From contig JBDRYS010000001.1 of the NCBI GenBank assembly GCA_039803545.1, forward strand, positions 313,866 to 377,865: a stretch of DNA of 64,000 nucleotides. Direction: 5' to 3'. A program made the translations under genes and the position numbers. Of the stretch, positions 16,111 through 63,970 are shown in pieces (positions within the stretch are counted from its first letter, which is position 1; each line of letters begins with the position of its first letter). The notes below the pieces were generated by a model. That model ran no database searches. It was not told the DNA's origin and saw nothing but the letters and a program-made list of their open reading frames with translations. The DNA is from a candidate division WOR-3 bacterium. Its GTDB lineage: Bacteria > Hydrothermota > Hydrothermia > UBA1063.

Positions 16111-16116
16111 TATAAT
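16111..16116 (+). promoter_or_regulatory. -10 box of a leaderless promoter for the acyl-CoA synthetase gene
   Basis: TATAAT lies exactly six bases before the ATG at 16123, so the transcript should begin at or within a base of the start codon. There is no ribosome site. The -35 region is poor. Confidence 0.65.
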
Positions 16117-16122
16117 GTTCAC

Positions 16123-17808
16123 ATGGACGCCTGGAGAAATTTAACTAAATATACAATTCCCGAACTCGTAAAAAAGATCGTTGAACTTCATGCAGCCCGA
16201 CCTGCAATGGGGTTTTACTTTGAAGAGCCTTTTACCTATGGCGAGTTAATGAGGAGGATAATCTCACTATCTCATCAGCTTAAGGAGTACGGTGTTAGAA
16301 AAGGAACCAAAGTTGCAATTCTGGGCGAAAATTCACCCAACTGGGTTATTGCATATCTTTCAACGGTTTTTCTGGGTGGCATTGCGGTTCCAATCCTAAC
16401 GGATTTTCATCCGGGTGATATTTCCAATATTTTAAAACATTCTGAGTCTACGGGGCTATTCGTGAGCAAGATTAACCTTCAAAGGCTAAAAGGTTATGAC
16501 CTTGGCAATGTTCGATTTTTGATTACCTTAGATGATTTTGCTCCAGAAACCCTTGAGGTTGAAGTGAGCCGCATTTCATCTATTTATGAGAAGGCTAAAA
16601 ATTTTGCATTACAATTAGCAGAAAAGATAGGATTAATAAGCGATGAGATTGAGCCTGACGATGTTGCTGCGATAATTTACACTTCGGGGACAACGGGAAA
16701 TTCCAAGGGTGTAATGCTTACTCATAAAAATATTGTTTCCAATGTTACGCAGGTTGCCAGAATATTCGATTTGAACCAGAACGACAGAGTCTTATCCATT
16801 TTGCCACTTGCTCATTCTTATGAGTTTACCTTGGGCCTATTGTATTCTTTATCGGTAGGTGCTTGTATCTATTACATCGGGAAAAAGCCTACCCCTGCTT
16901 TAGTACATGAGGCATGTGAGAGAGTAAAACCGACTATAATACCTGCTGTTCCCCTTTTGGTCGAGAAGGTTTATAAATCTAAGGTTAAAAAGCTTCTGGA
17001 AGAAAAGAAGGCGATCAAAACTGTTACAAAAATTCCTTTTGTCAAAAATCTTATCTATTCGAAGATAAGGAAATCTCTCCTTGAATTTTTTGGTGGTGAG
17101 TTGAGATGCATAACCTTAGGGGGAGCTCCTCTTTCCCTTGAAGTGGAGAAATTTTTAAGGACGATTAATTTCCCTTATGCGATGGGATATGGACTTACGG
17201 AAGCCTCTCCGCTCGTTAGTGGTTCTTTACCAACAGAAACGAGGCTTGGCTCAGCGGGTAAGGTAGCACCGGATATTGAAGTTAGAATAGTTGATCCTGA
17301 TCCCCATACTGGAGTTGGGGAAATATGGCTCAGGGGCCCCAACATTATGAAGGGATATTACAAAAACGAGAATCTTACAAGGGAAGTACTTACAGAGGAT
17401 GGATGGCTTAAGACGGGTGATCTTGGCTATGTGGATAAAGATAACTACATTTATATAAGGGGTCGCTCTAAGAACATGATACTTACCTCGGCTGGAGAGA
17501 ACATTTACCCTGAAAACATTGAAGAAAAGCTCAATATGCACCCCTTGATTCAAGAGTCAGTGGTCTATGAAAGGGAAGGGAGAATCGTTGCTAAGGTTTA
17601 TCTAAACTATGAGGAACTGGCTGAAGAACTGGAAGGAAAATCGGATTCCGAGAGGGAAAAAATTATAAGAGAGATTCTCAAAAAGGTTAGAGATGAAGTC
17701 AATGAGCAGTTGCCCTCTTACTCGAGGTTGTCTGAACTGTACGAATATCCTGAACCCTTTGAAAAAACGCCTACCAATAAGATAAAAAGGTATCTTTACG
17801 TAGATTGA
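16123..17808 (+). CDS. Long-chain acyl-CoA synthetase (AMP-forming)
   Basis: Activates a fatty acid through an acyl-adenylate to its CoA thioester. It has the ANL-family P-loop YTSGTTGNSKGVMLTHKN, the adenine motif GYGLTEASP, and GDLGYVDKDNYIYIRGRSK at the hinge to the C-terminal domain. Length 561 from the ATG at 16123; an upstream TTG at 16105 overlaps the -10 box and is unlikely. Its exact chain length cannot be read. It stands alone, diverging from the dcw operon and converging on the THEP1 gene with a 13-nt overlap of the ends. Confidence 0.92.
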   Translation: MDAWRNLTKYTIPELVKKIVELHAARPAMGFYFEEPFTYGELMRRIISLSHQLKEYGVRKGTKVAILGENSPNWVIAYLSTVFLGGIAVPILTDFHPGDISNILKHSESTGLFVSKINLQRLKGYDLGNVRFLITLDDFAPETLEVEVSRISSIYEKAKNFALQLAEKIGLISDEIEPDDVAAIIYTSGTTGNSKGVMLTHKNIVSNVTQVARIFDLNQNDRVLSILPLAHSYEFTLGLLYSLSVGACIYYIGKKPTPALVHEACERVKPTIIPAVPLLVEKVYKSKVKKLLEEKKAIKTVTKIPFVKNLIYSKIRKSLLEFFGGELRCITLGGAPLSLEVEKFLRTINFPYAMGYGLTEASPLVSGSLPTETRLGSAGKVAPDIEVRIVDPDPHTGVGEIWLRGPNIMKGYYKNENLTREVLTEDGWLKTGDLGYVDKDNYIYIRGRSKNMILTSAGENIYPENIEEKLNMHPLIQESVVYEREGRIVAKVYLNYEELAEELEGKSDSEREKIIREILKKVRDEVNEQLPSYSRLSELYEYPEPFEKTPTNKIKRYLYVD

Positions 17809-20378: not shown

Positions 20379-20703
20379 TCGTGGATTTTTTAAGCTCTTC
20401 ATCCAGCCAATTCAGATAGTCGCTATTTCCTGCAATTACCGGGATTGCCAGGATTTCAGGAACCGCGTAGTTGTGAACTTCCTTTATGGCCTTCTCCAGT
20501 TCAGGGTAGTAATCGGCTCTTGTTTTAGCTATGATGAGATACTCTGTATCTTTTGTGATTTTGTTCTCCCACCAATATTGACTCGTTATTGGCCCTAAGA
20601 TCTGCACACAAGCAGCAAGTCTCTTTTGAACTAAGGTTTCAGTGATTTTTTCAGCAACTTCCCTAACATTAGTGGTTGTGAAGACCTGAATATATTCTGC
20701 CAT
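20365..20703 (-). CDS. cutA: CutA1-family protein
   Basis: Trimeric ferredoxin-like protein of 112 residues, linked to divalent metal tolerance though its biochemical role is unsettled. Recognisable stretches are VQVFTTT-like at the start (YIQVFTTT), LVQKRLAACVQI, QYWWENKI and VHNYAVPEILAIPV. The ATG at 20703 fits the family start and lies six bases after TATAAT, so the mRNA may be leaderless. The 20733 start has no support. Confidence 0.93.
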   Translation of the reverse strand: MAEYIQVFTTTNVREVAEKITETLVQKRLAACVQILGPITSQYWWENKITKDTEYLIIAKTRADYYPELEKAIKEVHNYAVPEILAIPVIAGNSDYLNWLDEELKKSTNEKK

Positions 20704-20709
20704 GGCTTT

Positions 20710-20738
20710 ATTATAAGATGAGGTGAGTCCCAAAGCAA
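20710..20738 (-). promoter_or_regulatory. Leaderless promoter of cutA
   Basis: On the minus strand TTGCTT (20738-20733), a 17 bp spacer and TATAAT (20715-20710) precede the ATG by exactly six bases. There is no ribosome site. Confidence 0.7.
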
Positions 20739-23515: not shown

Positions 23516-23542
23516 TTCTTTTAATTTCCATAATTCCCAGTT

Positions 23543-23548
23543 TAAAAT
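23543..23548 (+). promoter_or_regulatory. -10 box of a leaderless promoter for folD
   Basis: TAAAAT is followed by six bases and then the folD ATG. No ribosome site is present, and no clear -35 box is seen next to the end of the tRNA. Confidence 0.5.
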
Positions 23549-23554
23549 TATCCC

Positions 23555-24394
23555 ATGTCAGCTAAGGTTATTGATGGAAGACTTATCAGGGAAAAGGTAT
23601 TGGAAGAATTAAAGGAACAAATTGCCTGTTTGAATCTTCAAAGGCCCTTGAAATTAGCCATTTTTCAGTATAAGCCTCAGGTTCCCGATGAACTTTATGC
23701 TCATTCACTCAAAAGGGTAGCAAAAAAGCTCGATATAGAAGTGGAGGTAAAAACTTTTGGAGACCTTGAATCGTTAAAAAGCGCTATTTATGCTTACAAT
23801 GAAGATGAATCTGTCGATGGAATTATGCTGCAGATAGAGGACAAAAAAGATTATTTATACTACACTTCTTTTATTGTTCCCGAAAAGGATGTAGATGGTG
23901 CAAGTCCTGAAAACCTTGGGAAGCTAATAAGGAAAGACAAAGGATTAAGACCCGCCACTGCTGATGCCGTTATCAGAATAATAAAAGAAACGGGCTATGA
24001 AATTCGCGGAAAAAATGCATGCATTCTTGGAAGAAGCTTCCGCTCAGGGCTTCCCATTGCAATAATGCTTATGAATGAGGATGCAACCTGCACCGTGTGT
24101 CACTCTTCTACCAAGGATATAAGCATTTATACACGAGAAGCCGACATCCTTGTTGTTGCTATTGGACGTGCCAACTTTATTGGCGCCGATATGGTTAAGG
24201 AAGGGGCTTTTGTGATTGACGTTGGAATAAACCAGGTAAATGACAAGGTTGTTGGAGACGTCAAATTTGATGAAGTTAAAGAAAAAAGTGGATACATAAC
24301 CCCTGTACCTGGTGGGGTTGGCTCGGTCACGGATGTTATGATTTTTAGAAATTTAATAAAAGGAGTGATTTTTAGAAATGAAAAGCGACATTGA
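23555..24394 (+). CDS. folD: Divergent FolD: methylene-THF dehydrogenase/cyclohydrolase
   Basis: Interconverts methylene-THF and formyl-THF. Family features are PEKDVDGASPENLG, the NAD(P)-binding GRSFRSGLP, CHSSTKDI and the C-terminal TPVPGGVGSVTDVM. Length 279. Several usual residues differ: the N-terminal active-site motif normally has Tyr and Lys four apart, while here the spacing is five (YAHSLK); the LPLP after the conserved Gln is IEDK; PCTP is PATA. Activity may be altered, or the protein may work in a specialised one-carbon route. Next to fhs, with a 17-nt overlap, which supports a joint pathway. Confidence 0.9.
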   Translation: MSAKVIDGRLIREKVLEELKEQIACLNLQRPLKLAIFQYKPQVPDELYAHSLKRVAKKLDIEVEVKTFGDLESLKSAIYAYNEDESVDGIMLQIEDKKDYLYYTSFIVPEKDVDGASPENLGKLIRKDKGLRPATADAVIRIIKETGYEIRGKNACILGRSFRSGLPIAIMLMNEDATCTVCHSSTKDISIYTREADILVVAIGRANFIGADMVKEGAFVIDVGINQVNDKVVGDVKFDEVKEKSGYITPVPGGVGSVTDVMIFRNLIKGVIFRNEKRH

Positions 24395-39040: not shown

Positions 39041-39949
39041 TTACCTTGGGACTGGGATTTTTTCTATGAAATCTTTTAAGAAAATAGACACATCACATTC
39101 GGGGACGTCGCAAATAACCCTGTGGCTTGCGATGTAAGGGAATATTTCCTTCACATCCTCAGGAATTACATAATTGCGCCCTTCTATGATTGCCTTTGCC
39201 CGTGCACATTTTAATAGGTGTATGGAAGCCCTCGAACTCAAGCCTTCCTTAATGGAGGGATTATTTCGTGTAGAGATAACGATTTCCGAGATGTAATCAA
39301 TTATTGAATCATCGACCGTTACCTTTGCAACTTCTTGCTGTATTTTTAGAAGTTCATCCTTGGTCATTTGTTGATTTAAGTAAGGAATTAACTCCCTTGG
39401 GTCTCCGGTTTTTAAAATTTCCTGTTCTACCTCCTTTGAAGGGTAGTCAATGTTGATCTTCATGAGAAATCTGTCCGTCTGGGTTATTGGAAGGGGGAAG
39501 GTTCCTGCATAATCCATAGGATTCTGGGTTGCAAAAACTATGAAAGGTTTTTCAAGTTCATAGGTTTTTCCTTCAATGGTGACCTGCCTTTCCTCCATCA
39601 CTTCTATTAGTGCGCTCTGGGTCTTGGGAGAAGCCCTGTTGATCTCGTCAATGAGGACAAAGTTGGCAAATATTGGTCCGGGCCGGAATTCAAAGTTCCC
39701 TGTTTTTAGGTTGTAAATATTTGTTCCAAGGATATCAGAAGGTAAAACATCACTGGTAAACTGGATACGGCGGAAGGATAATCCAAAGATTTTTGCAAAA
39801 GTAAGTACAAAGGTTGTTTTTCCGACACCGGTGGGTCCCTCAAGGAGCACATGGCCATCGGCCACAATTGCAGTCAGAACAGCCTTAATGATTTCGTCTT
39901 GCCCTTTAATAACCTTTTTGGCTTCTTTGATAATTTTCTCAAATTGCAT
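39041..39949 (-). CDS. MoxR-family AAA+ ATPase
   Basis: Chaperone-like ATPase of 302 residues. Walker A GPTGVGKTT (about 38-46), Walker B VLIDEINRA, sensor 1 FATQNP and EERQVTIEG between them are typical of MoxR. I chose the ATG at 39949: it fits the family start and lies seven bases after TATAAT. The longer frame to 39979 would read through the promoter. First gene of the moxR-DUF58-transglutaminase operon. Confidence 0.93.
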   Translation of the reverse strand: MQFEKIIKEAKKVIKGQDEIIKAVLTAIVADGHVLLEGPTGVGKTTFVLTFAKIFGLSFRRIQFTSDVLPSDILGTNIYNLKTGNFEFRPGPIFANFVLIDEINRASPKTQSALIEVMEERQVTIEGKTYELEKPFIVFATQNPMDYAGTFPLPITQTDRFLMKINIDYPSKEVEQEILKTGDPRELIPYLNQQMTKDELLKIQQEVAKVTVDDSIIDYISEIVISTRNNPSIKEGLSSRASIHLLKCARAKAIIEGRNYVIPEDVKEIFPYIASHRVICDVPECDVSIFLKDFIEKIPVPR

Positions 39950-39956
39950 ATTGTCA

Positions 39957-39985
39957 ATTATAAATTGAGAGAGGTGCATTGCGAA
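39957..39985 (-). promoter_or_regulatory. Leaderless promoter of moxR
   Basis: On the minus strand TTCGCA (39985-39980), 17 bp, TATAAT (39962-39957), seven bases, then ATG. No ribosome site. Confidence 0.65.
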
Positions 39986-50280: not shown

Positions 50281-51627
50281 TCAAAGAATTTTCTCTGCCT
50301 TTAGCCAGATAATTGCAATTATGCTCGCTCCCAATGGTGCAATGTTGAGCCCCCACCACACGCCGTTAAGCCCCATGTTAAAGTTTATCGCTAAGAGCCT
50401 TGCTGTAGGGTAGGCTATTACAAGAAGTCTGCAGAAAGTCAAAATTGCAGATTTAACACCTTGCCCCATACCGTTAAAGGCTGAAGAGGTATACATGCCG
50501 ACAGGTGTGAAAATGTAGGTCAATGAAGTTATTCTAAGGAATTTAATGATGTCAGGCATTAACACTTTCATAGAGACATCATTGGCAAATAAACCAGCGA
50601 GGAGGGGCGCAAAGGCATAGATCACAATTGCAATGACCGCCTGGATTTTAATACCGAGTTTCCAGGCCTCGATTATGCTTTTTCTCACCATGTCATATCT
50701 TTTTGCCCCATACCATGCACCCACAATTGAGATGGTTGCAGCAGAGATCCCAAGGGATGGTAAGACCGCAAATTGATTGAGTCTCATGCCTATGCTGTAA
50801 ATCGCAATTCCCTGTGGACCTCTAATGGTTGAAGTTAGGTGGTTGAAGAGCATCTGGCTGAAGGAAATCAGAAATTGTGAAAGTGCGAAGGGGAATCCGA
50901 CTTTTATTATTTCGTTTATCACGGGCCAATTGGGCTTGAAGTTCCTAACTCGGATTCTTACAAAGGTACTCTTTTGAAAGATTGCCCAGTAGATAAAGAG
51001 TATAAGGGAGACAACTTGGGAAATAACCGTCGCTACCGCAACCCCTACCAAACCCAGTTTAAAGATAAAAATGGAGATTGGGTCGAGGATTATATTCAGA
51101 ACCGACCCTGTGACCATAGCGATCATCGAGCGCTTAGTATCTCCTTCAGCGCGGAATATGGAGTTAAAGATCATCACTAAAAAGCTAATAGGCATTGAGA
51201 GGAATATGATTTTTCCGTACTTAAGAGCCTGCGGTAAGGCCTCTCCTGCACCAAGAGATATAAATATTTGCTTTGAGAAAATTAATAAAGTGAAAGTAGC
51301 AATGACGGAAATAACTATGGAAAGGAAAATTCCGTTGGCTGCAGCTTTATTTGCTCTTTCATAATCTTTTGCACCGATACTTCTTGAGATAAGAGAATTT
51401 GTACCTACACCGATTCCACCGGCTATGGCCATGGCAGCAAAGTTCAGAGGTTGTGCCAGCCCTATGCCCGCGATTCCAAGAGAAGAGTTTTTAAGGGTTG
51501 AAATCCAGAAGGCATCCACTAAGTTGTAAAATATCTGAACGAAATTGGCGAAAATAGTAGGACTTGCCAGTTTCCATATGGATTTGCTTGGATGTTCGAA
51601 CAATAGTTCAACGTGCTTATAAGCCAT
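50281..51627 (-). CDS. MATE-family efflux transporter
   Basis: 448 residues with about twelve membrane segments in two similar halves. PTIFANFVQIFYNLVDAFWI and GGIGVGTNSLISRSIGA in the first half, and the matching PFALSQFLISFSQML in the second, are typical of the MATE/DinF/NorM group. Exports drugs or metabolites with Na+ or H+. Substrate unknown. The ATG at 51627 follows TAAACT by exactly six bases. Confidence 0.92.
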   Translation of the reverse strand: MAYKHVELLFEHPSKSIWKLASPTIFANFVQIFYNLVDAFWISTLKNSSLGIAGIGLAQPLNFAAMAIAGGIGVGTNSLISRSIGAKDYERANKAAANGIFLSIVISVIATFTLLIFSKQIFISLGAGEALPQALKYGKIIFLSMPISFLVMIFNSIFRAEGDTKRSMIAMVTGSVLNIILDPISIFIFKLGLVGVAVATVISQVVSLILFIYWAIFQKSTFVRIRVRNFKPNWPVINEIIKVGFPFALSQFLISFSQMLFNHLTSTIRGPQGIAIYSIGMRLNQFAVLPSLGISAATISIVGAWYGAKRYDMVRKSIIEAWKLGIKIQAVIAIVIYAFAPLLAGLFANDVSMKVLMPDIIKFLRITSLTYIFTPVGMYTSSAFNGMGQGVKSAILTFCRLLVIAYPTARLLAINFNMGLNGVWWGLNIAPLGASIIAIIWLKAEKIL

Positions 51628-51633
51628 GGCCTA

Positions 51634-51639
51634 AGTTTA
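51634..51639 (-). promoter_or_regulatory. -10 box of a leaderless promoter for the MATE gene
   Basis: On the minus strand TAAACT, six bases, then ATG. The same -10 sequence is used by the dcw promoter. The -35 region is weak. Confidence 0.45.
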
Positions 51640-51718
51640 ATGTTAGCAGTGCGAACAATCTAACTTTGAACTTTTATCCTGAAATTTTCGTCAAATGATG
51701 TAGAAAGGAGGTGAAAAA

Positions 51719-57838: not shown

Positions 57839-58714
57839 TCAGCTGGATTTCCCACTTAAACTTTTCACATAAAACTCACCGGCACGATAAGAACTTCTTA
57901 CAAGGGGCCCTGAAGCAACGTAGTCAAATCCCATTGATAGTCCAATTTTCTCAAATTCTTTGAATTCTTCAGGCGTGTAATATTTGATAACGGGGGCGTG
58001 TTTAATCGATGGTCTGAGGTACTGGCCTATGGTGAGAAAGTTCACCTTTATTTCTCGTAATCTTTTCATTGTATCAATGATCTCATCCTTTGTTTCACCG
58101 AGTCCCACCATAAAGCCGGATTTAGTGTAAAGATCTGTTTTTATACTCTTTGCAATCCTTAGGGTCCTGAGGGAGGTTTCGAAGGACGCCCTGCGATCTC
58201 TAATTTCTGGGGTTAGTCTTTCAACAACCTCTACGTTGTGGGCAAAAACATCAACACCTGAGTCGACGATCTTCTTTATATGTTCGGGATTGGCTCTTAG
58301 GTCTGGAACTAAGACTTCGACGAGTATGTTAGGGTACTTTGATTTTATCAGCCTCACTGTTTTTGCATAGATTTCTGCTCCTTGGTCTTCTAAATCGTCC
58401 CGCGTAACGGAAGTGATTACCACATAGTCGAGGTTCATCTCTTCAACGGCCTTTAGGACTCTCTCAGGTTCATCGTAATCGATAATTCCACGAGGGTTCC
58501 CCGTCTTCGTGGCGCAGAATTTACAGTGTCTTGTGCAAATATCCCCCAGTATCAAAAAGGTAGCAGTACCGTGCCCCCAGCATTCTCCTAAGTTAGGACA
58601 CTTTGCTTCCACGCAGACAGTGTGTAAGTTTAATTGCTTTAGTGTCTTAATAACTCTGACAAATTTGTCGTTTGCAACGAATTTACTTCGTATCCAATCG
58701 GGCTTTTTCTCCAT
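57839..58714 (-). CDS. lipA: Lipoyl synthase
   Basis: Radical SAM enzyme that inserts two sulfurs into octanoyl groups of lipoyl domains. The auxiliary cluster Cys34, Cys39, Cys45 (CVEAKCPNLGEC) and the radical SAM CTRHCKFC (Cys60, 64, 67) are present, together with VTSVTRDDL, HNVEVVERL and SGFMVGLGET. The C-terminal RSSYRAGEF provides the conserved RSSY. Length 291. The ATG is six bases after TACAAT, so the mRNA is probably leaderless. Confidence 0.97.
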   Translation of the reverse strand: MEKKPDWIRSKFVANDKFVRVIKTLKQLNLHTVCVEAKCPNLGECWGHGTATFLILGDICTRHCKFCATKTGNPRGIIDYDEPERVLKAVEEMNLDYVVITSVTRDDLEDQGAEIYAKTVRLIKSKYPNILVEVLVPDLRANPEHIKKIVDSGVDVFAHNVEVVERLTPEIRDRRASFETSLRTLRIAKSIKTDLYTKSGFMVGLGETKDEIIDTMKRLREIKVNFLTIGQYLRPSIKHAPVIKYYTPEEFKEFEKIGLSMGFDYVASGPLVRSSYRAGEFYVKSLSGKSS

Positions 58715-58720
58715 CGATTA

Positions 58721-58772
58721 ATTGTAATTTATGACTCTGGAACTTCCAAGTCCTTATGCCGTCGTTTAAAAT
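58721..58772. promoter_or_regulatory. Divergent lipA/miaB promoters sharing one -35 hexamer
   Basis: Minus strand: TTGGAA (58749-58744), 17 bp, TACAAT (58726-58721), then six bases and the lipA ATG. Plus strand: the same hexamer read as TTCCAA (58744-58749), 17 bp, TAAAAT (58767-58772), then eight bases and the miaB ATG. Neither gene has a ribosome site. Confidence 0.65.
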
Positions 58773-58780
58773 TAAGCACT

Positions 58781-60064
58781 ATGAAAAGTTATCATATAAT
58801 CACCTTCGGCTGCCAGATGAACGAATATGACTCTGCCATAGTGGATAATTTAATGCGGAAAGAAGGTTTTATTTCCGTTGAAAAGCCGGAGAAGGCTGAC
58901 ATCGTTATAATAAATACTTGCTCTGTTAGGGGGAAACCTGAGCAAAAAGGAATTGAGGTTGCAAAGTATTTTAAAAAAAGAGGAAAATACGTTGTTCTGA
59001 TGGGTTGCACAGCCCAGCAGAAGGGTGAAGAACTTTTAGGAGTATCGGACCTTGTGGTGGGTACGAGGAATTTTCAGATAATTCCTGAGGCTATTAAAAA
59101 CAGTTTTTCTGGTAGATCCTTCCTCGAACTTAAGACCTCTTGTAACTTTAGTTTTCAGGGGCGCAGCGTACGGAAAATCCTTGAATACGTGGTGATTCAG
59201 GAAGGTTGTGATAATTTCTGTTCCTATTGCGTTGTACCATATACACGAGGAAGGGAATATTCAAGGTCCCCAGAAGAGGTATTAGAAGAACTTAGGTATG
59301 CTGAGGAAAGGGGTGCCCTTGAGGTAACCCTTCTTGGACAAAATGTTAATTCTTACTATTACAAGGGTATTGATTTTGCCGATTTGCTAAAGTTCATTGA
59401 CGAGAGAACTAATATCCCAAGAATCTATTTCACTACTTCACACCCACGGGATATGAGTTTGAAGGTAATTGAGGTTGTTAAAAATGCTCGGCACATAAAA
59501 CCCTGGTTCCATCTCCCCCTTCAGTCCGGTTCTACGAAGGTCTTGAAGGATATGAACAGGGGATATACCAAGGAAGAATACCTTGAACTGACGCAGTATA
59601 TAAGGGAAAAGATTCCTTCTGCTTCTATCACAACTGATCTGATGGTAGGCTTTCCCACAGAAACGGAGGAAGATTTTGAAGAGACGCTCGATGTTGTGAG
59701 AAAGGTGAAGTTTGACAACGCCTATATGTTCATTTATTCGCCCAGAAATCCTTCACCTGCCTATTTCCGGTACAAGGATAAAGTAATTGATGAAGAGGTC
59801 TCTGGTAAGAGGCTCCGGCGATTAATAGCAGAGGTTAACAGAAATATCTATGAGAGGCGTAAGCTGATGCTGGGTAGGGAGTACGAAATCCTCATTTATG
59901 GCCCTTCCAAAAAAAGTTCAAAATATTCCAAAGGCAAAACAGAAAACAATATAACCGTTGTAGTTCCAGGCGTTTTTGAAGAGGGAGAGTTTATCCGCGT
60001 TAGGATTGAAAAAATTGTTGGACTTACTGCCATGGGTGAATTAGTCGCGGCTGAGGTTAGGTAA
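58781..60064 (+). CDS. miaB: tRNA-2-methylthio-N6-dimethylallyladenosine synthase
   Basis: Methylthiolates A37 of tRNAs that read UNN codons. The N-terminal cluster domain has Cys11, Cys47 and Cys76 (GCQMNEYDS, NTCSVR, GCTAQQ). The radical SAM motif CDNFCSYC (Cys143, 147, 150) and PYTRGREYSR follow, and a C-terminal TRAM domain ends the protein. Length 427. GCQMNEYDS favours MiaB over the related MtaB and RimO. Its end overlaps the convergent gene by 24 nt. Confidence 0.95.
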   Translation: MKSYHIITFGCQMNEYDSAIVDNLMRKEGFISVEKPEKADIVIINTCSVRGKPEQKGIEVAKYFKKRGKYVVLMGCTAQQKGEELLGVSDLVVGTRNFQIIPEAIKNSFSGRSFLELKTSCNFSFQGRSVRKILEYVVIQEGCDNFCSYCVVPYTRGREYSRSPEEVLEELRYAEERGALEVTLLGQNVNSYYYKGIDFADLLKFIDERTNIPRIYFTTSHPRDMSLKVIEVVKNARHIKPWFHLPLQSGSTKVLKDMNRGYTKEEYLELTQYIREKIPSASITTDLMVGFPTETEEDFEETLDVVRKVKFDNAYMFIYSPRNPSPAYFRYKDKVIDEEVSGKRLRRLIAEVNRNIYERRKLMLGREYEILIYGPSKKSSKYSKGKTENNITVVVPGVFEEGEFIRVRIEKIVGLTAMGELVAAEVR

Positions 60065-62015: not shown

Positions 62016-63934
62016 TTTTTCTCACTCCTTAAGAGGTACTGGTATATAATTATACTTCGCAAAATCCGCTGAACATACTCCCTTGTCTCCTTGAAGGGAA
62101 TTAACTCGAGAAATAGTAGTTGGTCGTTAGTTGTATAAGTGCTTTTCCATTCGCGAATTCTCGATTCCCCTGCGTTGTAGGCGCATAGGGTGTGAATTAG
62201 ATTGGGGAATGAATCGGACAACATTGATAGATATTTGATTCCAATAGTGATGTTTAAGTCAGGTACTCCAAGGGAATCGGGTGTAGCCTCCCGCATAATC
62301 CTTTTCCCTGTTGAGGGTAAAATCTGCATAAGGCCAATGGCACCGGCTGGACTTATAGCGGTGGGATTGAATCGGCTCTCTTCTCTCATTAGTGAAATTA
62401 CAACTTCGGGTTTTACGTTGTAAAAATTGGCAATGGAGCTTACTTGCTTGTAATAGTTTGTGGGAAAGATGTGTTTTAACAGGTAAAGGGGGATACCTTT
62501 TCTATCTGGCAAAGAGTTGTAATAGTCCAATGCGAGTTTTATCCTGATGTAATCATTGCCATAGCGTTCTGCCAATTTTACAGCGCCGTAAAGGTCATTA
62601 GGTTCAGAGGGCACGTAGTTCAAGGCTTCCGATTGATCTCCTAAGATTAGAAGATACTTGACAATTTTTAGTTTTTTAAAGGTTTCCTCTGATATTTCAG
62701 GCTCGGGTTCGCGGGTGACCACTAAACCTTTATCCAGTATGTAGAAGTAGTCAAATTTGGTTTCGTTATCTAAATCGTCATCTACGTAACGGCCTAAATT
62801 CTTTAAGAAGAAACGTGCCCTTATTTTTATTGGTAAGTTATTCCCATTGAGGCTCTTGATAAAGAGACTTTCGGCGCTCGTAGAATCTCCCTTGTACATT
62901 TTAAACAGGGCTAAGGCGTAGGAGAGTTCCTGTGAATGGACATTCACATTGTTAAAGTAACACTGGGAAATGGAATCCTTTTCTCTGATCAGGATATCGG
63001 TTATAAGCCTTGCAGCAATTTCGTTTCTCTGGTTGGCTAAATAATGAATGTACTCAAGTCCCTTAAGTGGATTTTGCGTTTTCCAGTAGGAGTAGCCTAT
63101 AGATAAAAACAGGCTTTTTTCTTCTCTTTCGTTTAACTTATCCCTGAGTTTTTCAAAAACTTGGATAGTTTTGTTGTAGTTCTTGAGTCTGTAAGCCGAC
63201 AGGATCTGGGCATAAGGGTAGCGAGTTGTGTTGATTTTTGTAAAAATGCTGTCTGCCTTTGCATAATTTCCGGCAGAGTAGTAAACAAATGCCTGCAAAG
63301 TATCATCTAAAAGCGAAACCAATCTAACTGCGTAAGGGGAATCGGGTTTGATTTTTACAAGTTCTTTTGCAAAATTTCGTGCATTCAAAGTATCAGACTT
63401 ACTAAGGGCTTTTAAAGCGTTCAGGAAGGTTCTTGTCTCTTGGGAAATTGGCCTTAAAGTCAGCAGAGAATCAGCAAATTCTATTTTTTGCTTGTTCCAT
63501 ACGTAGTCTACGAAATTCCTTATTGCAACCTTCAGATAGCGTGGATTCTTTATCTCTCTAACATAAAATAAGGCTTCCTGCGGCTTTTCAAGATGTAACA
63601 GTTTTTCAACAAGTCGCATGTAGAAATATTCTTTTAATTCAGCGATTGAATCTGCGAGGATTTTCAGGTTATAAACAGCTAAGGAGTCATAGTTGTTACT
63701 CTGCAAAAGGTTTGAGGTGTAGGCCAGAAGAACATCGGTGGAGACATTATTATCTTTTAGATAACTTATTGCCTTTTCTGTTTTGAGGTTGATTCTGCAA
63801 GAAATCAAAACGAGAACAGAGTCTTCCGTGTCCTTAGTGTTTTGCCACATAGTTGAAACCAGCCAGAAGTTCCTATTACTGAAATTTTCCTTTATGGGGC
63901 TTATATTGCAGAGGAAAAGCAAGAGGAATAACAT
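62012..63934 (-). CDS. Lytic murein transglycosylase with helical repeat superhelix
   Basis: 640 residues: short signal, a long alpha-helical region resembling the Slt70 U-shaped or TPR-like superhelix (about 30-490), and a C-terminal lysozyme-like domain. The catalytic Glu is in REESRFNP (about 519), followed by SPAGAIGLMQILPST, DLNITIGIKYLS and CAYNAGES. It cleaves MurNAc-GlcNAc bonds to the 1,6-anhydro product. I chose the second of two ATG codons (63934), seven bases after TAAAAT; the first is at 63937. Confidence 0.93.
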   Translation of the reverse strand: MLFLLLFLCNISPIKENFSNRNFWLVSTMWQNTKDTEDSVLVLISCRINLKTEKAISYLKDNNVSTDVLLAYTSNLLQSNNYDSLAVYNLKILADSIAELKEYFYMRLVEKLLHLEKPQEALFYVREIKNPRYLKVAIRNFVDYVWNKQKIEFADSLLTLRPISQETRTFLNALKALSKSDTLNARNFAKELVKIKPDSPYAVRLVSLLDDTLQAFVYYSAGNYAKADSIFTKINTTRYPYAQILSAYRLKNYNKTIQVFEKLRDKLNEREEKSLFLSIGYSYWKTQNPLKGLEYIHYLANQRNEIAARLITDILIREKDSISQCYFNNVNVHSQELSYALALFKMYKGDSTSAESLFIKSLNGNNLPIKIRARFFLKNLGRYVDDDLDNETKFDYFYILDKGLVVTREPEPEISEETFKKLKIVKYLLILGDQSEALNYVPSEPNDLYGAVKLAERYGNDYIRIKLALDYYNSLPDRKGIPLYLLKHIFPTNYYKQVSSIANFYNVKPEVVISLMREESRFNPTAISPAGAIGLMQILPSTGKRIMREATPDSLGVPDLNITIGIKYLSMLSDSFPNLIHTLCAYNAGESRIREWKSTYTTNDQLLFLELIPFKETREYVQRILRSIIIYQYLLRSEKK

Positions 63935-63941
63935 CATTACA

Positions 63942-63970
63942 ATTTTAAGGGCTTTGCATTGATTTTACAA
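63942..63970 (-). promoter_or_regulatory. Leaderless promoter of the slt-nfeD operon
   Basis: On the minus strand TTGTAA (63970-63965), 17 bp, TAAAAT (63947-63942). The second ATG follows after seven bases. The remaining bases to 64000 are intergenic. Confidence 0.7.

Follow-up and report, generated by a model that had tools for sequence, protein, structure and literature searches.

Sigma-70-type promoters abutting start codons point to widespread leaderless transcription in a candidate division WOR-3 bacterium

In a candidate division WOR-3 bacterium, the upstream sequences of about a third of the operons suggest that the first transcribed base is that of the start codon itself, with no ribosome-binding leader. 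Leaderless transcription from sigma-70-type promoters abutting the gene, as a genome-wide class beside Shine-Dalgarno initiation, is very probably the best reading of the data presented here. The window, a stretch of 64,000 nucleotides, had been given a first-pass annotation that placed a -10 box upstream of the ATG at a spacing of six bases in five genes and of seven in moxR and slt, and all seven boxes and spacings proved correct when checked in the sequence. The -35-like hexamers that had been reported at 17 bp for cutA, lipA, moxR and slt are real, if individually modest (3/6, 4/6, 4/6 and 4/6 matches to TTGACA, respectively). The seven genes had also been described as having no ribosome site, in agreement with which zero occurrences of GGAG, GAGG, AGGA or AAGG were found in the 20 nt before each ATG. 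The predicted promoters are listed below with P(leaderless) from the mixture model described further on, together with that of miaB, an extra case beyond the seven genes that is divergent from lipA.

16111–16125, forward strand: leaderless promoter of the acyl-CoA synthetase gene; -10 TATAAT 16111–16116, then GTTCAC, ATG 16123 (N6); P(leaderless) = 1.00
20701–20738, reverse strand: leaderless promoter of cutA; -35 TTGCTT 20733–20738, -10 TATAAT 20710–20715, N6, ATG 20703; P = 1.00
23520–23557, forward strand: leaderless promoter of folD; -35 TTTAAT 23520–23525, -10 TAAAAT 23543–23548, N6, ATG 23555; P = 1.00
39947–39985, reverse strand: leaderless promoter of the moxR-like AAA ATPase gene; -35 TTCGCA 39980–39985, -10 TATAAT 39957–39962, N7, ATG 39949; P = 0.98
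51625–51662, reverse strand: leaderless promoter of the MATE transporter gene; -35 TAGATT 51657–51662, -10 TAAACT 51634–51639, N6, ATG 51627; P = 0.99
58712–58749, reverse strand: leaderless promoter of lipA; -35 TTGGAA 58744–58749, -10 TACAAT 58721–58726, N6, ATG 58714; P = 0.99
58744–58783, forward strand: near-leaderless divergent promoter of miaB; -35 TTCCAA 58744–58749, -10 TAAAAT 58767–58772, N8, ATG 58781; P = 0.97
63932–63970, reverse strand: leaderless promoter of the SLT-domain lytic transglycosylase gene (slt); -35 TTGTAA 63965–63970, -10 TAAAAT 63942–63947, N7, ATG 63934; P = 0.89

The first-pass gene names were borne out by Pfam/NCBIfam, with support for AMP-binding (acyl-CoA synthetase), CutA1, FolD, AAA_3/bpMoxR, MatE, lipoyl synthase, MiaB and SLT, the name slt resting solely on the SLT domain. 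The closest named matches of FolD are from the candidate division WOR-3 bacteria UBA5631 (72%) and UBA1063 (69%). The acyl-CoA synthetase gene has a weak -35 (TTCTTT, 17 bp from the -10). The slt start is ambiguous by one codon, since a second in-frame ATG (63937, at a distance of 4 from the box) lies directly upstream of 63934. An in-frame ATG of moxR at 39979 sits within the promoter of ATG 39949, and starting the moxR annotation at 39979 would probably make the gene 10 codons too long. The divergent pair lipA/miaB has 66 bp between its ATGs (58714 and 58781), and the two -35 hexamers, each 17 bp from its own -10, are the same six base pairs (58744–58749) read on opposite strands, inside the near-palindrome TTGGAA-G-TTCCA.

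The genome containing the window (1.67 Mb in four contigs, 99% completeness) was read whole, in stretches that were then joined, and 1418 genes were called with our own simple Markov coding-model caller, not a published one. For the test against chance, starts were picked from the coding signal alone, giving 374 ATG operon heads and 576 operon-internal genes. TANAAT was found at a distance (d) of six bases from the ATG in 45/374 heads and at d = 7 in 12/374, compared with about three per distance elsewhere, whereas only 7/576 and 1/576 operon-internal genes had it at d = 6 and d = 7, respectively (57/374 vs 8/576 for both distances, Fisher p = 8e-17). PWM matches at d = 6 numbered 42 among the heads against a dinucleotide-shuffle mean of 0.93 (sd 0.93), corresponding to 11.2% of heads vs 0.07% of internal in-frame ATGs. 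The count of box-to-ATG spacings against shuffles over the full genome, which the first-pass annotation had proposed as a check, therefore gave a large excess, tied to particular distances and restricted to the heads of operons. Raw counts of TATAAT-Nd-ATG over the whole genome with genes ignored (53 at d = 6, 44 at d = 7 and about 30 at d = 8–11) were only modestly peaked, indicating that the signal needs gene context, and they are too noisy for comparison among relatives.

A mixture model fitted by EM over start choice and signal, with leaderless-type and Shine-Dalgarno (GGAGG) classes, assigned 37% of heads to the former and 50% to the latter, compared with 4% and 69% of internal genes. The TATAAT class had a spacing of 6 in 51% and 7 in 19% of cases, with a tail at 8–11 making up about 30% of the class, and a refit with spacing restricted to 5–8 gave 32% and 49% for heads and 3% and 69% for internal genes. 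All seven genes of the first-pass annotation obtained P(leaderless) of at least 0.89. Its proposal that operon heads use two translation modes is supported, at 32–37% leaderless-type and 49–50% Shine-Dalgarno, with the anti-Shine-Dalgarno of the 16S rRNA intact: the 16S 3' end reads GGATCACCTCCTTT and contains CCTCC, and Shine-Dalgarno pairing is therefore available. Controls run with the same code gave leaderless fractions of 0.01 for E. coli K-12, 0.02 for the low-GC Ligilactobacillus plasmid pMP118 and 0.00–0.01 for the genome's own shuffled upstreams. Deinococcus deserti scored only 7% with the AT-rich PWM of the WOR-3 genome, before refit, and a free refit yielded TANNNT at a spacing of 6 (49%) or 7 (23%) in 40% of heads. 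The 171 genes of the leaderless class in the WOR-3 genome start with ATG (156), GTG (13) or TTG (2). Among head genes that are transcribed divergently, about half belong to the leaderless type, and divergent leaderless pairs showed no excess over chance pairing (35 seen vs 35.5 expected); many of the leaderless-leaderless intergenic regions are just 58–108 bp long.

Alignment of the 171 sites on the -10 revealed T (83%), T (78%) and G (56%) at a fixed 17 bp upstream, with TTG at a spacer of 17 in 83/171 sites and of 16 in 12, so that a -35 lies about 17 bp from the -10, as in sigma-70 promoters. The tRNA promoters of this genome likewise carry a -35 whose distance of 17 bp hardly varies, and the boxes are, as judged from these alignments, true -10 elements. 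A pyrimidine precedes the ATG in 79% of the d = 6 starts vs 54% of Shine-Dalgarno heads (p = 1e-6), which fits transcription starting on a Y-R step, with the A of the ATG as its first base.

With positions numbered from the first -10 base, the same alignment uncovered a preference for T (66%) at -16 and for C (60%) at -14 (171 sites; chi-square p = 2e-25 and 1e-32, respectively), which correspond to about -28 and -26 from the transcription start. Both bases occur with or without TT at -35, and in sites with 16- and 18-bp spacers they tend to hold their distance from the -10, as seen in only 14 cases. The tRNA promoters, which were chosen without using these positions, carry C-14 in 24/28 and T-16 in 21/28 cases, such as those of tRNA-Gly (119583) and tRNA-Cys (264171) on contig G000:C1, while the pattern is weaker in leadered promoter candidates. 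Congeners (n = 42) and the sister family f2 (n = 9) show it as well, and a C-14 preference was not seen in the sampled sites of families f3/f5, f18 or f14. Inspection by eye of RpoD and the start of RpoC gave no evident peculiarity to account for these bases. A sequence preference within the spacer is reminiscent of the Z-element, a stretch of promoter spacer from -24 to -18 facing the beta' zipper (PMC4496709); however, the WOR-3 bases at about -28 and -26 fall outside this span and are hence not a Z-element. We put at even chances that they form an extra basal spacer element, T at about -28 plus C at about -26, fixed to the -10 and not to the -35, which would be present in the housekeeping promoters of the genus and thinly in one sister family, be read by the RNA polymerase of the clade at tRNA promoters as well as at leaderless and leadered ones, and be missing from other WOR-3 families. 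Limited literature searches found no earlier description of these bases, which may be newer than the leaderless finding itself.

The assignment of genes to the two classes is inherited within the genus. Among orthologues of leaderless genes in three congeners, 27/30 keep TANNNT at d = 6 or 7 and 1/30 is Shine-Dalgarno-like, whereas 0/40 orthologues of Shine-Dalgarno-led genes have the box and 39/40 are Shine-Dalgarno-like (Fisher p = 2e-16). The folD arrangement, TANAAT/TANNNT-N6-ATG, is retained in all three congeners, and the MATE and lipA boxes are retained in one of them (G018). Relatives beyond the genus were sampled at 20–140 kb each, and on these rough percentages the leaderless type stands above the respective shuffles in families f3/f5 (39% pooled), which share the taxonomic class of this genome, and in f18 (27%) and f14 (32%), which lie outside it. 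Families f2, f22 and f20 gave 11–12%, not clearly above shuffles, and leaderless transcription is for this reason not claimed for the whole phylum. The f18 (L173–L177) and f14 (L183–L187) sites, 6 and 11 in number, display TTGAC at a 16-bp spacer and not TTGAAA/TTGACT at 17 bp.

It could be argued that the box is an AT-rich, non-Shine-Dalgarno ribosome-binding signal, as in Bacteroidota, and not a -10 element, given that its position near the ATG is the one expected of a ribosome site and that the FCB group has known AT-rich non-canonical ribosome-binding sites (PMC9581028). An AT-rich ribosome site is, however, excluded by the -35 hexamer at a fixed 17 bp upstream of the box and by the spacer T and C recurring at the same positions in tRNA promoters, which are untranslated; the class is also nearly absent from operon-internal genes, which need translation too, and we regard this explanation as highly improbable. 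Chance can be set aside with still greater assurance. Intergenic DNA rich in AT often contains TANNNT, and the instances near ATGs might have been picked out, as the modest peak of the raw counts would allow, but the shuffles (about 1 match vs 42–45 seen), the low-GC Ligilactobacillus plasmid (2%) and the -35 and spacer pattern in common with tRNA promoters exclude AT-richness as the cause, and neither the difference between heads and internal genes (p = 8e-17) nor the inheritance of state by orthologues is expected from it.

The remaining alternative accepts the promoters as real and supposes very short leaders (1–5 nt), or main expression from additional upstream promoters with leaders. The spacing tail at 8–11 may indeed represent very short leaders, other possible ATGs lie close to those of slt and moxR, and the 5' ends are deduced from the letters; the sharp mode at 6, the YR step at the A of the ATG, the spacing shared with D. 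deserti and the lack of Shine-Dalgarno sites nonetheless make this option improbable as an account of the class. The first-pass proposal of frequent leaderless transcripts is hence supported by the box excess, the spacing and the -35, and we infer from sequence both the exact 5' end at the A of the ATG and the ribosomal mechanism.

Under the leaderless reading, a housekeeping sigma-70-type promoter would lie so near the gene that RNA polymerase initiates on the A of the start codon or no more than one base away, and the resulting mRNA would be leaderless and initiated without Shine-Dalgarno contact, like leaderless AUG-first messages elsewhere. This class accounts for about a third of operon heads and about half of the divergent ones, coexisting with Shine-Dalgarno initiation, which dominates at operon-internal genes and at the other half of heads. 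Large-scale leaderless expression would thereby be extended to a poorly known phylum and, judging by the families sampled, to two or more of its classes, and the calling of WOR-3 gene starts would need a promoter model, not a ribosome-site model alone. The conserved spacer bases are a tangible clue, open to experiment, to a promoter contact particular to this clade.

Leaderless expression is a known mode, for which we found no report in the WOR-3 phylum; a literature search for papers containing both 'leaderless' and 'WOR-3' found none. In Mycobacterium tuberculosis, many mRNAs reportedly have the start codon at their very 5' end, with a TANNNT -10 preceding it. That organism is a high-GC actinobacterium with experimental 5' ends, unlike the WOR-3 genome, where the evidence is from sequence alone. 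Its leaderless transcriptome is the subject of a published report (PMC3898074). Bacterial surveys (Zheng 2011, GeneMarkS-2) recognised a TA-led or leaderless class, in which as many as 40% of transcripts may be leaderless (PMC3160421, PMC9581028); the TA-led genes display the same signal, and WOR-3, which is absent from the groups listed by Zheng 2011 (PMC3160421), would fit the up-to-40% class. There is a close likeness in arrangement to Deinococcus-Thermus, where a -10 motif about 6–7 bp upstream of D. radiodurans ORFs works as a promoter and leaderless mRNAs are established in D. deserti (PMC12340547). As in these two species, the -10 of the WOR-3 genome lies 6–7 bp before the start, at operon heads and beside Shine-Dalgarno-led genes, with a spacing distribution nearly the same as that of D. 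deserti upon refit. The motif is TANNNT in Deinococcus, compared with TATAAT/TAAAAT in the WOR-3 genome, and the -35 at a near-fixed 17 bp, strongly conserved in the WOR-3 genome, has no counterpart in 27 aligned D. deserti sites.
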